Source: Blastopirellula retiformator
GTDB lineage: Bacteria > Planctomycetota > Planctomycetia > Pirellulales > Pirellulaceae
Length of the DNA: 64,000 bases
Assembly (NCBI RefSeq): GCF_007859755.1
Contig: NZ_SJPF01000003.1
Location: forward strand, 248,001 to 312,000
Direction of reading: 5' to 3'
Position 1 is the stretch's first letter, and each line of letters opens with the position of its first letter. The notes beneath the pieces are model-generated. The model saw only the letters and a program-made list of their open reading frames with translations. It had not been told where the DNA came from and ran no database searches. Shown here in pieces: positions 36,202-41,421 of this stretch. The position numbers and the translations under genes are program-made.

Positions 36202-39200
36202 TTACTTCTTCTTCAGCGTTTCGAGGTACGAGACGACGTCGACCAGTTCCTGGACGGTCATCAGCTTTTGCAGGTCGGCCGGCATCAGCGACGTCGGCAG
36301 CTTGCGCATTTCTTCGATCTCGTCTTGCGAAAAGCTGCGAACCAGGCCTTCCTGGTTTTTGATGGTGACCGCTTCGTCGGTTTCGCTGACCAACAGCCCG
36401 GTAATCGCCGTGCCGTTTTCGAGCAGAATCGCGAAGTTCTCGTAGTTGTGGCTGATGCCGGCGCTGGGATAGAGAATCGATTCGAACATCGCCTCGCGGC
36501 TCAGCTTCGAGCCGATCTCGCTCAGGTTCGGACCCACCTCTTTCCCTGCGTTGTTGACGACATGGCACTTGGCGCAAGTCGCTTCGCCGGCGAACGCCTG
36601 TTTGCCGTTCGCGACGATGCCAGGGATTTTGACCAGTTCGGCCAGCGGCGGCAGCGGCTTGTTGTCTTTGCTCGGCGGAGCGGGGAAGATCTTTGCCGCC
36701 TGGTCGCGCACCTCGTTCCAGGTGGACGACGTCAGCGGAGCGGCCGCCGCGTCCATCAGGGCCGGATCGAGCTTGCCCGACTTGGCGAGCGCCACCAGCT
36801 TGTTGGCGCTGCCGCGGTTGGCGGCGAGCGCCTTGACCGCGATCCGCCGCAACGCGATATCCTTCGAACTGTCGTCGACCAGCTTTTGCATGATGCCAAT
36901 CGCCGGACCGGCGGCCGAATTGCCGACCGCCGTCGTGGTGGCGATCGCTTTCTCGAGATCGTCGCCGTTGATCGCGTTCATGACCGGTGCGCGCTGGTTC
37001 TTCTCCAGCAGCACCTTCATGGCGGCGACGCCGGTCGACTCGTTCGGTTGGGCCTGGGCGATCGCCAGCAGGTCAGCGTAGCGATCTTGCACGTTGAACT
37101 TGTCGACCAGGTCGACGAAGATCTGCGTGCCGGCCAACTTGGTAAGCGCGGTCTTCAGGGCCGCGGCGTGCTGCGGGTTCTTCGCAACGTCATAGCCGCC
37201 GATCCGGCTGATCGATTCGCTGAGGATGAACTGCTGCGCGTCGGGATCGGCGCCAGCGCCAGAGAAGGCGAGATCGGCGATCACCCGGCTCTTGGCGTCC
37301 CCTTTTGCTTGGAAGTCAAATGCCCGGAAGTACCGCGGCAGGTCGTTGTATGGCGTCGCCGGATCTTGGATGATCGCCGCCAACAGGCCTGGGGTCTTCG
37401 CGGCGCGGCTCCGCCAGACGATGTCGCGACCGCCGGGCGTGTTCCATTTGTCGCCAACCTGGGCCAGGTAAGCGTCGAGACAGGCGTCCCACTTCAAGTC
37501 GGCGCCAATGCCGAGCGCCTCGAGGTACCAGCGATCTTGGCCGTCATGCTGGTCGGCAAGTTGCGACCACAGCTTGACCGCCTCGGGACTGTCGGTCCAA
37601 CGCAGCGCGATCGCCGCTTCGCGACGGACTTGCGGCGAAGGGTCGCTGACCAACTTGGCGACGAGCGGCTCGATCGGCAGTTGCAATTGCTTCGCCAGAC
37701 GCAGCCCGGTGATCCGGATATCGGCGTCCTTGTCAGCCAAAGCGGCCGCCACGTAGTCGGCGCCGCGGCCTTCGATCTTGCCCAGCAGCCAGAGCGCCCG
37801 GGCACGGACCCGCGGGTTGGGGTTCGACTCGAACATTCGCTTCAGGCCCGCTTCCGCCTTCGCGCCCTGGTTGTGCAGCGACGTCCAGGCCAGGTAGCGA
37901 ACCGACATGTTCGGGTTTTCGAGCGCCGCCAAGGCGCCGTCGATCGTGTCGAAGTCGAACTTCGGCGCCGTGTACTTGGCGCCTGGCGGAGCGACGCGGA
38001 ACAGGCGACCCCGATCAAGATCGCGTTGGCCGTGTCCGCCGACGCCGGGATCGTACCAGTCAGAGACGAACAGCGATCCGTCTGGAGCGACGCAGACGTC
38101 GGCCGGGCGGAACCAGTTGTCGCGGGCGCCATGCAGGATGTTGACCATCTCGCCCTGGTAGCCGGCGCCCTCTTTCTGAGCCGGGTAAGCGCGGACGACG
38201 TTCGGTCCGGCGTCGCAGTGGATCACTTGATCCCAGAAGACTTCCGGCAACAGGCGACCTTCGTAAACGCAGATGCCGGTCGGCGAACCGGCGCCGGTTT
38301 GAACAAAGTTGGGGACGACGCCGGGGTCGTTCAGGTGCCAGTGACGCAGCGGGATTTCTTCACTCATGCCGGTCCGCGGATCGCGCCAGCCGGCGCCGGT
38401 CATCTCGTCGCGATAGCCGAAGTTGCCTTGCTCCATCACGTAGTTGATCCGCACGCCGCGGTTACCGTCGTCGTCGTTATCGCTTTGCCACAGCGTACCG
38501 AACGAGTCGACCGTCACTTCGTAGTTGTTGCGGAAGTTGTGAGCCAGGACCTCGAACTCGCTGCCGTCCAGGTTGCAGCGGAACGGCATGCCGCCGAAAA
38601 GTGGATTGCCGTTGTCGACCACCGTGCGACCATGAATGTCGACGACCGGCTTGCCATCTTTGTCGAAGACCTGCTTGCCGGTATTGCCGAAGTTCCAGTA
38701 GAGCTTGCCGTCGGGGCCGAACAGAAACGAGTGGCACGAGTGATCATGCTGCGGCTGCCCGGTTTTGGTGAAGAGGAGCTCTTTTTGATCGGGCTTGTCA
38801 TCGCCGTCGGTATCGGTGAAGACGATGATGTTCGGGGTCGCCGAAACGATCACCTTGTTCCCCAGCACGCAGATCCCCATCGCGGTGTCGACGTCATGCC
38901 CTTGGTAGTAGACCTTCGACTTTTCGCAAACGCCGTCGCCATCTTCGTCTTCCAGGATCAGAATGCGATCCCCTTCTGCACGCGAGCCGGCGTTGCGGCG
39001 ATAGTTCATCACGTCGCAGACCCAGACGCGGCCGAGATGATCGACGTCCAGATTGGTCAGGCTCTTGAGCATCGGTTCGGAAGCGGCCAGGGTCGCTTCT
39101 AGGTCTTCATGAACGTCGATGCCTTCCAGGGCGCTATCGGGCTCTCGCGACACGGCGTCTTCGCCGGTGACGATGTTGGCGAATGACGGCGGGTTCTCGG

Positions 39201-39708
39201 TATAGACGGCGAAGACGACGCTGGTCGCGGCGCCTCCTTGCTGATTGCTGCCGCCGTTATCGAGGGCGCCTTTCGCGTGAAACTTGGTGAACCCTTCCGG
39301 CAGATCGTAGGCGATGATCGAGTTGGCGTGCGTGCCGATGCCGCTGTTGAACAACTCGCCCTGGACGCGAAGCGGGGCGCAGTCGACGTTGCGGTTTTTA
39401 TTGACCGAACGCCACTGGGTGACGGCCGACTTCCAGTTCAAGTCGGTCAGGGGCTTTTCGCCGCTGGGGCCGATCAACTTTGGTTCGATCCAGTCGGCCC
39501 AGTCGCAAGAGTAACCGTCGCCGCCGTCGGTCACGACCAGGTAGAGATGCTTGGCGCCGGTGATGTCGACGTCGATGTTGACCGCGTGACCCGCGGTGCG
39601 CGTGGTCACGACTTTGCTCTTGAACTTCGGCTTGCCCGCCTTGGCCGTTTGCACGGCGGGCTTCTTCGCTGCGGCCTCAGTTACTTTTTTTTTTCGGGTT
39701 GGGACCAA
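36202..39708 (-). CDS. PVC-type haem-binding dehydrogenase with NPCBM, propeller, HEAT and cytochrome c; no good start
   Basis: This 1168-codon frame opens only at a TTG at 39708; no ATG or signal peptide is found. Order: Lys/Ala-rich N-terminus; NPCBM-like carbohydrate-binding domain (about residues 30-170; LFNSGIGTHANSIIAYDLP); PVC-type propeller dehydrogenase (about 210-620; NRRVWVCDVMNYRR-type and LFVSDWYDPGVGGHG motifs); HEAT repeats (about 625-1010); cytochrome c with CAKCH at about residue 1045. A cytochrome needs export, which this frame alone does not provide. It overlaps the DUF1080-ThuA frame by 32 bp across an A10 run. Loss of one A fuses both into one 1665-residue protein carrying the upstream signal peptide. 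Confidence 0.85.
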   Translation of the reverse strand: MVPTRKKKVTEAAAKKPAVQTAKAGKPKFKSKVVTTRTAGHAVNIDVDITGAKHLYLVVTDGGDGYSCDWADWIEPKLIGPSGEKPLTDLNWKSAVTQWRSVNKNRNVDCAPLRVQGELFNSGIGTHANSIIAYDLPEGFTKFHAKGALDNGGSNQQGGAATSVVFAVYTENPPSFANIVTGEDAVSREPDSALEGIDVHEDLEATLAASEPMLKSLTNLDVDHLGRVWVCDVMNYRRNAGSRAEGDRILILEDEDGDGVCEKSKVYYQGHDVDTAMGICVLGNKVIVSATPNIIVFTDTDGDDKPDQKELLFTKTGQPQHDHSCHSFLFGPDGKLYWNFGNTGKQVFDKDGKPVVDIHGRTVVDNGNPLFGGMPFRCNLDGSEFEVLAHNFRNNYEVTVDSFGTLWQSDNDDDGNRGVRINYVMEQGNFGYRDEMTGAGWRDPRTGMSEEIPLRHWHLNDPGVVPNFVQTGAGSPTGICVYEGRLLPEVFWDQVIHCDAGPNVVRAYPAQKEGAGYQGEMVNILHGARDNWFRPADVCVAPDGSLFVSDWYDPGVGGHGQRDLDRGRLFRVAPPGAKYTAPKFDFDTIDGALAALENPNMSVRYLAWTSLHNQGAKAEAGLKRMFESNPNPRVRARALWLLGKIEGRGADYVAAALADKDADIRITGLRLAKQLQLPIEPLVAKLVSDPSPQVRREAAIALRWTDSPEAVKLWSQLADQHDGQDRWYLEALGIGADLKWDACLDAYLAQVGDKWNTPGGRDIVWRSRAAKTPGLLAAIIQDPATPYNDLPRYFRAFDFQAKGDAKSRVIADLAFSGAGADPDAQQFILSESISRIGGYDVAKNPQHAAALKTALTKLAGTQIFVDLVDKFNVQDRYADLLAIAQAQPNESTGVAAMKVLLEKNQRAPVMNAINGDDLEKAIATTTAVGNSAAGPAIGIMQKLVDDSSKDIALRRIAVKALAANRGSANKLVALAKSGKLDPALMDAAAAPLTSSTWNEVRDQAAKIFPAPPSKDNKPLPPLAELVKIPGIVANGKQAFAGEATCAKCHVVNNAGKEVGPNLSEIGSKLSREAMFESILYPSAGISHNYENFAILLENGTAITGLLVSETDEAVTIKNQEGLVRSFSQDEIEEMRKLPTSLMPADLQKLMTVQELVDVVSYLETLKKK

Positions 39709-41200
39709 GCAAGCCTTCCAGGTCGTCCTTGGTCAGCGACTTCGACGCGACGCCGCCAGCGGGAACTTCATCGCCAGCGACCCAGACGATCGCATTGAGC
39801 ACGACTTTGCGGAAGTTGTCTTCACCCCAGTTGCTGTGAAAGTGACCGCCGGTGAAGCCAAAGCCGCGTCCGCCATCGGGGCGCTCGGCGACCCAAGCGA
39901 CATGTTGCGGCTGGCCAATCATTGCGCGAACGTGAGGATTGCCGCTGTGCGGGCCATCGGGGCGATCGAGGGTCGACTTGGGGGGAATCGCCGACAAGAT
40001 CGGGGTGACCCCTTCCATGTCTTCGCGAAACCGCATGTTGTAGTACCACTCGTCGTTGATCGAGAACGGCTTGACGCCATTGGCGACCGGGTGATCGGGC
40101 AGCGCCTTGAAGTCAGCGGTCCAGTGCGGATTGACGCTGTAGTCGGTTTCAAAGTAGCCGCCGATCCAGTCGACGAACTTGTCGCCTGGCTCCCCTTTCG
40201 GAGTCTCGACGCCGTAGTGAATGCACGCCAGGCCGACTCCCTCTTTCATCAGCTTGTCAAACTGATCGAGATGCGGGTTGAGCAGGTGACGTGGGCCGCC
40301 ATCGCAGTAGACGACGACCGCATCGGCGTTATCGAAGGCGGTCGGATCGGCCGGCCAGCCGCCGGGATAGATCGACGCTTCGATATTGGGAACGTTTTCC
40401 ATCAGCGCGATCATCAGCAGGTGGCAACCGCCCGAGTGCTCGTGCTGGCCCCAACCATGGCTCGGCATGCCGGGCACAAAGACGACCTTCTTCTTGTCAC
40501 CTTCCAGCTTGGTGCGCTTCAGCTCGATGTCTTTGAACTGAACGGTCATCGGCGGGCCGGCGTGCAGTTGCAGCGCCAAGATGCCGCTGGTGCGACTGTC
40601 CTTTTCGCCTTCGTCGATCACTTCCGAGGTCTTCACGCCGTTGATGTAATGGGTGAGGTGGTTCCCCTTGGCGACGATGTGGTATTCGTTCCAGTCTTCC
40701 TTCTTGACTTTCTTTTGGATCTCGGCCGAATCGGCGAAGCGCTCTTCCTTGCGACCGTCTTTGCCATCCTGAATGGTCGCCGTGATGCCGCGATTGGCGA
40801 TGATGCCGCGGCCGCGCTCTTCGTAGTTGATGCCGCTGTAGGTGTCGCCGCTGTCGATGTCGGCCTGGTACCCTTTGACGACGAAATCGCCCAGGTCAGT
40901 CGAGCGATATTGAATGCCGGAGTTGCCGCCGACGATCTTGTATTTCAGCTTCAGCTCGAAATCGTCGACCGTCCCCTGATCCCAGATCAAGAAGGTGTTG
41001 CCTTTGGTCGGATTGTCCGAGGTAGTCTGGCCAGTGATCGCGCCATCTTGGACGCTCCAGAACTGCTCTTTGCCGCGCCAGCCGTTCAGCGTTTTGCCGT
41101 CAAAGATCGGCTTGAACCCGTCCTCGGCGGCGGCGACCGAAAGCATTGAGGTCGTCGCAAAGATGGCGACAAGCAAAAGAAGACCAGGCGATTTCTTCAT
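39677..41200 (-). CDS. DUF1080 (3-keto-disaccharide hydrolase) plus ThuA-like protein, ends at A10 tract
   Basis: The 507-residue protein starts at ATG 41200. It has a Sec signal (about residues 1-24, ending SVAAAED), a DUF1080/LamG-like domain (about 25-230; WRGKEQFWSVQDGAITGQT, GNSGIQYRS, GIIANRGI, WNEYHIVAKG), and a ThuA-like domain (about 238-490; VVFVPGMPSHGWGQHEHSGG, ADAVVVYCDGG, GLACIHYG, GRGFGFTGGHFHSNW). The frame ends right after LLGPNPKKKSN, where KKK is encoded by the A10 tract. DUF1080 proteins act on disaccharides and ThuA is linked to trehalose use. Read without the tract's tenth A, translation continues into the PVC cytochrome frame. Confidence 0.9.
   Translation of the reverse strand: MKKSPGLLLLVAIFATTSMLSVAAAEDGFKPIFDGKTLNGWRGKEQFWSVQDGAITGQTTSDNPTKGNTFLIWDQGTVDDFELKLKYKIVGGNSGIQYRSTDLGDFVVKGYQADIDSGDTYSGINYEERGRGIIANRGITATIQDGKDGRKEERFADSAEIQKKVKKEDWNEYHIVAKGNHLTHYINGVKTSEVIDEGEKDSRTSGILALQLHAGPPMTVQFKDIELKRTKLEGDKKKVVFVPGMPSHGWGQHEHSGGCHLLMIALMENVPNIEASIYPGGWPADPTAFDNADAVVVYCDGGPRHLLNPHLDQFDKLMKEGVGLACIHYGVETPKGEPGDKFVDWIGGYFETDYSVNPHWTADFKALPDHPVANGVKPFSINDEWYYNMRFREDMEGVTPILSAIPPKSTLDRPDGPHSGNPHVRAMIGQPQHVAWVAERPDGGRGFGFTGGHFHSNWGEDNFRKVVLNAIVWVAGDEVPAGGVASKSLTKDDLEGLLGPNPKKKSN
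39685..39694 (-). other. A10 tract at the overlap of two frames: candidate slippage site or frameshift
   Basis: On the coding (minus) strand ten consecutive A residues lie 9 nt before the TGA of the DUF1080-ThuA frame and inside the overlap with the PVC frame. Reading CCG-AAA-AAA-AAA-AGT-AAC-TGA stops; with nine A it reads CCG-AAA-AAA-AAA-GTA-ACT-GAG and stays open to 36202. It is either a transcriptional or translational slippage site, a true recent mutation, or a homopolymer sequencing error. Confidence 0.7.
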
Positions 41201-41421
41201 GGGGTCTTTCTCGCGATGTTGATTGGAATAGGGGGGGAAGCGGGCGGCGTGGGGTGTGAATAGCGCCGTCCGACGCAGCATATTGGTAGGCATCCGCCGC
41301 TGCAGGCGTACTGCTAAGTCTAGCCTAAACCGATTCTGATAACCAGAAACGGCCTCGCCAACACCCGATATTTCCCGCGCGAGAGAGAGATTTGCTGCAA
41401 GATTCTATGTAGCGCGCAAAG

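Follow-up and report, generated by a model that had tools for sequence, protein, structure and literature searches.

The window, that is, the whole stretch of 64,000 nucleotides that was analysed (GC content 60%), contains on its minus strand a run of ten A's, A10, at positions 39694-39685, located between two long open frames. This run is probably, with a chance of about three in four, a programmed transcriptional-slippage site of the Thermus dnaX type, predicted to yield from one gene both a DUF1080-ThuA protein alone and its fusion with a PVC-type cytochrome. The arrangement is retained in all four genomes of the genus that were compared, and similar tracts with adjacent stops occur at other domain boundaries in related genomes.

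The upstream frame starts with the ATG at 41200 and ends as GPNP-KKK-SN-stop, with the TGA at 39679-39677. As written, it encodes 507 residues (39677..41200, minus strand) with a signal peptide, MKKSPGLLLLVAIFATTSMLSVAAAED, recognized by eye, a PF06439 3keto-disac_hyd domain (DUF1080, 3-keto-disaccharide hydrolase-like; 40517..41119, E 3.4e-40) and a PF06283 ThuA domain (39779..40330, E 7.2e-18). In the mechanical ORF list the first ATG of this frame is at 41293, and the ATG at 41200 begins the signal-like sequence. The downstream frame is one base out relative to the DUF1080-ThuA frame and is open from before the tract through to 36202, also on the minus strand. Its part beyond the tract (36202..39684; 1,160 codons and a stop) encodes an NPCBM domain (PF08305, 39157..39456), a PVC propeller covered by the TIGR02604 PVC-type heme-binding N-terminal domain (37987..39105), which overlaps PF23500 (DUF7133), HEAT repeats (PF13646, 37531..37749) and a TIGR02603 CxxCH haem-binding domain (36217..36615). 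Scores of TIGR02604 (310.7 bits, cut-off 122.2) and TIGR02603 (109.5 bits, cut-off 68.15) are both above the curated cut-offs, which assigns the protein to the PVC-type haem-binding CxxCH group. By eye, the downstream frame has no visible signal peptide and no ATG ahead of the NPCBM domain. The two mechanical ORFs share 32 bp (39677-39708).

If one A is removed from the tract, or two are added, a single frame is open to 36202. The segment 41200-36202 minus one base has 4,998 nt, that is, 1,665 residues and the stop. By computed frames, an mRNA must have 9 or 12 A's for the upstream frame to be joined to 36202..39684. Transcripts with ten A's, as in the genome, reach the TGA (39677..39679) and end the protein in SN, whereas those with 8 or 11 A's reach a TAA at 39681..39683, the protein from eleven A's ending in K. 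The initial annotation had described this layout, namely the termination of the DUF1080-ThuA frame just past ten A's, the 32-bp overlap, the domain content, the signal peptide present on the upstream half only and the 1,665-residue protein obtained by dropping one A, and in all these points it holds. It offered three explanations, a slippage site, a recent mutation or a sequencing error; comparison with other genomes backs the first, and the other two are unlikely.

The genus (group g1) was covered by four genomes, one per species: the window's 6.2-Mb genome (G000), G001, G002 and G003. Alignment of homologues had been suggested as a check, and the A-run is indeed kept in all four genomes compared, being A10 in G000, G001 and G002 and A9 in G003. 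In the Blastopirellula marina DSM 3645 record NZ_CH672377.1 (L161) the tract reads as in G001. The two halves are in frame in G001 and G003, where the open fused lengths are 1,710 aa and 1,705 aa, respectively, and out of frame in G000, which requires one A fewer (or two more), and G002, which requires one more (or two fewer). Both wrong frames are closed within three codons from the tract in all four congeners. Thus, across the four species, the tract takes all three phases, its length hardly varies and the stops stay in place. The comparison of the unfused species G000 and G002 indicates constraint on both halves, with dN 0.057, dS 0.53 and dN/dS 0.107 in the upstream half and dN 0.093, dS 0.55 and dN/dS 0.17 in the downstream half. 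The ratio of downstream to upstream dN/dS is about 1.6, both for this unfused pair and for the fused genomes G001 and G003.

Among the 241 genomes of the family, 231 had a match in a ThuA search. The junctions were read in 103 of these, mostly from the top of the list, some being skipped (e.g. G150, G151, G152, G162, G174), and in two genomes of other families taken from a search with the downstream half, 105 in total. Each genome is represented by its best ThuA locus, loci L002-L031 being used only for genomes not yet covered. There was no measurable junction in 13 of the 105 genomes; the remaining 92 gave 147 junctions, those wider than 200 nt being excluded. The distribution of run lengths is bimodal, with A8 or less at 118 junctions (A8 itself at one) and A9-A11 at the other 29. 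All 118 junctions of the first group are in frame. In the second group 15 of the 29 are out of frame, 13 of them needing one A more and two needing one A fewer, and 14 are in frame. The case of two separate genes, each with its own start and signal peptide, which would have contradicted the initial annotation, was not encountered, all 147 junctions being either in one frame or broken at nine or more A's.

The long runs are accompanied by stops. Both wrong-frame stops lie within four codons at 11 of the 29 junctions with nine or more A's, against 0.31 expected from shuffling, in which downstream codons were exchanged for synonyms drawn by local usage; where no long run is present, this is the case at 1 of 118 junctions, against 0.73 expected. 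At long runs the farther of the two wrong-frame stops is a median of 7 codons away for DUF1080/ThuA and 6 codons for ThuA/PVC, compared to 41 and 45.5 codons, respectively, at the other junctions (Mann-Whitney P 7e-15, P values overstating independence because the surveyed genomes are related). Both stops are found within 12 codons in 26 of the 29 cases, the exceptions being G193, G016 and G036. In-frame sites with nine or more A's likewise carry stops in both other frames.

The tract recurs at homologous junctions of many other genera, with wrong-frame stops close to it. Its occurrence in the family is patchy (29 of 147 junctions), and it was gained or lost repeatedly. On a tree of the 92 ThuA domains, obtained by a quick search and having many weak forks, the run state changes at least ten times at the ThuA/PVC boundary and at least eight times at the DUF1080/ThuA boundary. 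A single origin of the tract was also considered and is unsupported by this tree, in which 26 of 89 inner branches are drawn open. In a neighbouring genus (g62, nine genomes) the gene is fused and has no tract, and therefore the short product is not required everywhere. At loci L142, L144, L146, L147 and L150 DUF1080-ThuA is terminated by a stop codon, and the approximately 1.5 kb beyond it contain no downstream part. Since DUF1080-ThuA thus occurs as a gene without a nearby downstream part, it is plausible that the predicted short form is a finished protein. Two A10 tracts in one gene were observed in G022 (L084 / L006), out of frame at DUF1080/ThuA and in frame at ThuA/PVC; by its frames, such a gene could allow three products.

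A second gene of the window's genome (L045 / L245, G000:C2:552669) encodes a phosphonate-binding-like domain (PF12974) and then a PQQ propeller (PF13360), with an out-of-frame A9 at the junction. In total, 61 loci of this type were read, 50 from the 56 matching family genomes and 11 further ones, L373 and L374 being left out due to weak matches. Eight of the 61 have no propeller in reach (L346 and L357 of these are cut off by a contig end), and the other 53 were used. The propeller is out of frame in 36 of them, with A9 in 33, A10 in two and A8 in one, all needing one more A. The in-frame loci comprise three with A8-A10 and 12 lacking a run, and two loci have other spacing. An out-of-frame A9 or A10 at this junction is found in 35 genomes, including that of the window, and the A9 state occurs also in another family of the class (G487, G414, G526, G350). 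Of the 35 out-of-frame sites with nine or more A's, 31 have the nearer wrong-frame stop no more than two codons away, and 17 have both stops within four codons. When the two main families are combined, 48 of 50 out-of-frame sites with nine or more A's need the same net shift (one A more, or a ribosomal shift of -1), the opposite shift being needed only by the window's gene and by G178. Such a bias fits an insertion-biased polymerase and, equally, -1 ribosomal frameshifting.

The main alternative, which is possible but unlikely, is that programmed frameshifting by the ribosome at the A-run (A_AAA_AAG or A_AAA_AAA) joins the frames. A net shift of -1 joins the frames in G002 and at most out-of-frame sites. 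Moreover, 24 of the 33 phosphonate-binding/PQQ A9 sites have the form xxA AAA AAA AAN, and in 19 of these 24 the next codon is a stop. The evidence from downstream RNA structure is mixed. The RNA from the tract onward (window positions 39575-39700) folds better than its shuffles in G000 (z -3.0) and G002 (z -5.1); however, folding is weaker in G001 (z -1.7), and at the phosphonate-binding/PQQ site of G000 it is no better than that of shuffles (z -0.6). On the other hand, the window's gene and G178 need +1 or -2, and a -1 shift cannot join the frames there. Further, seven A's would be enough for the ribosome, yet there are nine in 33 of the 36 out-of-frame phosphonate-binding/PQQ cases, across all three codon phases (24, 6 and 3). 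That the run keeps a length of nine in every codon phase speaks for the polymerase and not for the ribosome. A further argument against ribosomal frameshifting is that in-frame sites, too, have stops in both other frames.

Another possibility, considerably doubtful, is phase variation, in which replication would alter the tract length and the long product would be switched on and off between cells. The phase does differ among close relatives, both the four congeners and G009, G198 and G199. However, the two parts of the phosphonate-binding/PQQ gene are in different frames in 36 genomes and share one frame with A8-A10 in three; if so regulated, it would be nearly always "off". The close relatives G016 (A10) and G178 (A9) are both out of frame, and tracts of 9-10 nucleotides are short for hypermutable loci.

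A recent frameshift mutation, decay or a sequencing error in a simply fused gene is very improbable. Homopolymers are error-prone, and G001 and G003 are plainly fused, but the tract is present in all four congeners, the frame is broken in different directions in two species while the downstream half is still constrained, the wrong-frame stops are independent of the A count, and none of the 118 junctions with A8 or less is broken. A miscount in the G000 assembly would alter the phase of the window's gene, not its design. Finally, it is most implausible that there are two genes and that the second has a start of its own: a TTG at 39708 mechanically opens the second frame and, by eye, an in-frame GTG at 39609-39607 precedes the NPCBM domain, but no signal peptide is visible for this c-type cytochrome, the homologues in G001 and G003 are fused, and in the second family 34 of the 36 out-of-frame loci have no ATG, GTG or TTG between the tract and the propeller match (a TTG occurs in L351 and L353).

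Runs of nine or more A's are rare in the window's genome: 27 distinct ones on the two strands, A10 or longer in three, so that the explanation by chance A-runs was rejected. The longest run found in G000 is an A13 (L038, G000:C1:1019405). Four runs were judged by eye, from open-frame lengths and three translations, to be within genes: those in the ThuA/PVC gene, the PF12974/PQQ gene, a transposase-like gene and a UvrA-like gene. The A9 of the third (L035, G000:C1:792035) joins frames which, from the translation, we take to be an IS3-like transposase, and junctions of this type are a known kind of recoding site. The fourth (L033, G000:C1:120672) is an A9, in frame, within a charged segment of a protein that, from its translation, is presumably UvrA; the other-frame stops are not close, at 15 and 40 codons, and it serves as a contrast case. 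Among 91 further distinct runs of nine or more A's in the three congeners, whose own ThuA/PVC tracts were excluded, 16 are flanked by long open frames, 12 out of frame and four in frame (L232, L241, L284, L308). By eye, most of the 16 look like spurious GC-rich frames, and the clear out-of-frame case is the phosphonate-binding/PQQ site of G002 (L222).

Tracts were also seen at two other types of boundaries. Genes with DUF1080 followed by a GH2-like domain have A9 out of frame in L069 (G005) and L070 (G258) and A10 in frame in L213 (G255); a wrong-frame stop is one codon past the tract, and the GH2-N match is below its cut-off. A protein with TPR and DUF6797/DUF7133 (L065, G022:C80:17116) has an in-frame A9, then stops in both other frames. 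The pattern AAAAAAAAAGTARYTRAG, drawn from sites already seen, has nine matches in 241 genomes versus one for the reversed control. Four of these are the source sites (G000, G002, G004, G030) and five are new, all between long open frames; seven of the nine are out of frame and two in frame. The pattern AAAAAAAAAAGTAR (A10-GTAR) is not enriched in the 241 genomes, with 13 matches versus 10 for the reversed controls; there is no coding frame before the tract in L204, L207, L208 and L209, and there is one in the other nine. One fixed cassette sequence was rejected, as AAAAAAAAAGTARYTRAG was written from known sites and bare A10-GTAR is barely commoner than the control.

The tract, its phases, the adjacent stops, the constraint on both halves and the recurrence in other genes are observations, whereas we infer that RNA polymerase slips at the A10 tract of the window's gene and that both products are made. 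The polymerase would produce mRNAs that differ in their A count. Counts of 9 or 12 would give the full secreted DUF1080-ThuA-NPCBM-PVC cytochrome, whereas other counts would lead to a stop within three codons and to a secreted enzyme of two domains, DUF1080 and ThuA, carrying a short tail of lysines. A mixture of the short and long products would be made at any genomic A count, and because of this the count and phase could drift between species while the tract and flanking stops are kept. Judging from the domain names, the tract may set the ratio of the free sugar enzyme to that tethered to a cytochrome and thus linked to electron transport.

The initial annotation, whose reading is supported in part, had only the window in view; the wider pattern, with the DUF1080/ThuA boundary and other genes, lay outside it. 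There is an even chance that A9/A10 slip-and-stop tracts are a device in general use among Planctomycetes, gained repeatedly at domain boundaries (DUF1080/ThuA, ThuA/PVC cytochrome, phosphonate-binding/PQQ propeller, DUF1080/GH2-like, TPR/DUF6797) and setting the ratio of free to extended protein. Such genes look broken or split in genomes, though both halves are constrained. If this is true, polymerase slippage provides many planctomycetes with a short and a long version of a protein, and the repeated gains of the tract at domain boundaries are natural replicates for studying the evolution of slippage and the setting of the ratio. The bacteria concerned are harmless, and B. marina DSM 3645 among them is a named strain. 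This would be a bacterial counterpart of alternative splicing for modular, mostly exported enzymes, with one gene giving a set ratio of products.

No report of slippage or frameshifting for Planctomycetes, Planctomycetota, Rhodopirellula or Blastopirellula was found in the open-licence literature. In the available parts of the GeneTack paper (PMC3711429) Planctomycetes are named once, in a table with two species. According to two other papers (PMC1088944, PMC5009743), slippage of bacterial RNA polymerase is documented at nine or more A's, and there is selection against in-gene A-runs at nine A's in a large share of bacterial genomes. The same papers describe Thermus thermophilus dnaX (tau/gamma), where A9 with nearby stops in both non-zero frames gives a short and a long product. 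The window's gene has the same features, a conserved run of about nine or more A's in a coding region and close other-frame stops; from this layout a short and a long product are predicted. Unlike dnaX, the planctomycete genes encode secreted multidomain sugar/cytochrome proteins, the tracts are at boundaries of whole domains, and the genomic phase drifts.

In Shigella mxiE and spa13 (PMC1088944, PMC5009743) a longer product also arises from slippage, but the genes and taxon are different, and in Blastopirellula in-frame and out-of-frame versions coexist within the genus. Recoding of orfA/orfB in IS elements similarly involves an A-run between two frames; the window's gene, however, is constrained, chromosomal and not mobile, and consists of two multidomain halves. 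In the endosymbionts Buchnera and Blochmannia, slippage at poly-A mends broken frames (PMC5009743), whereas the genome of the window is GC-rich, A-runs in it are rare, and stops flank the tract. Thus the mechanism is already known; what appears to be new are these gene families and this taxon, together with a phase that drifts and tracts gained repeatedly at boundaries between domains.
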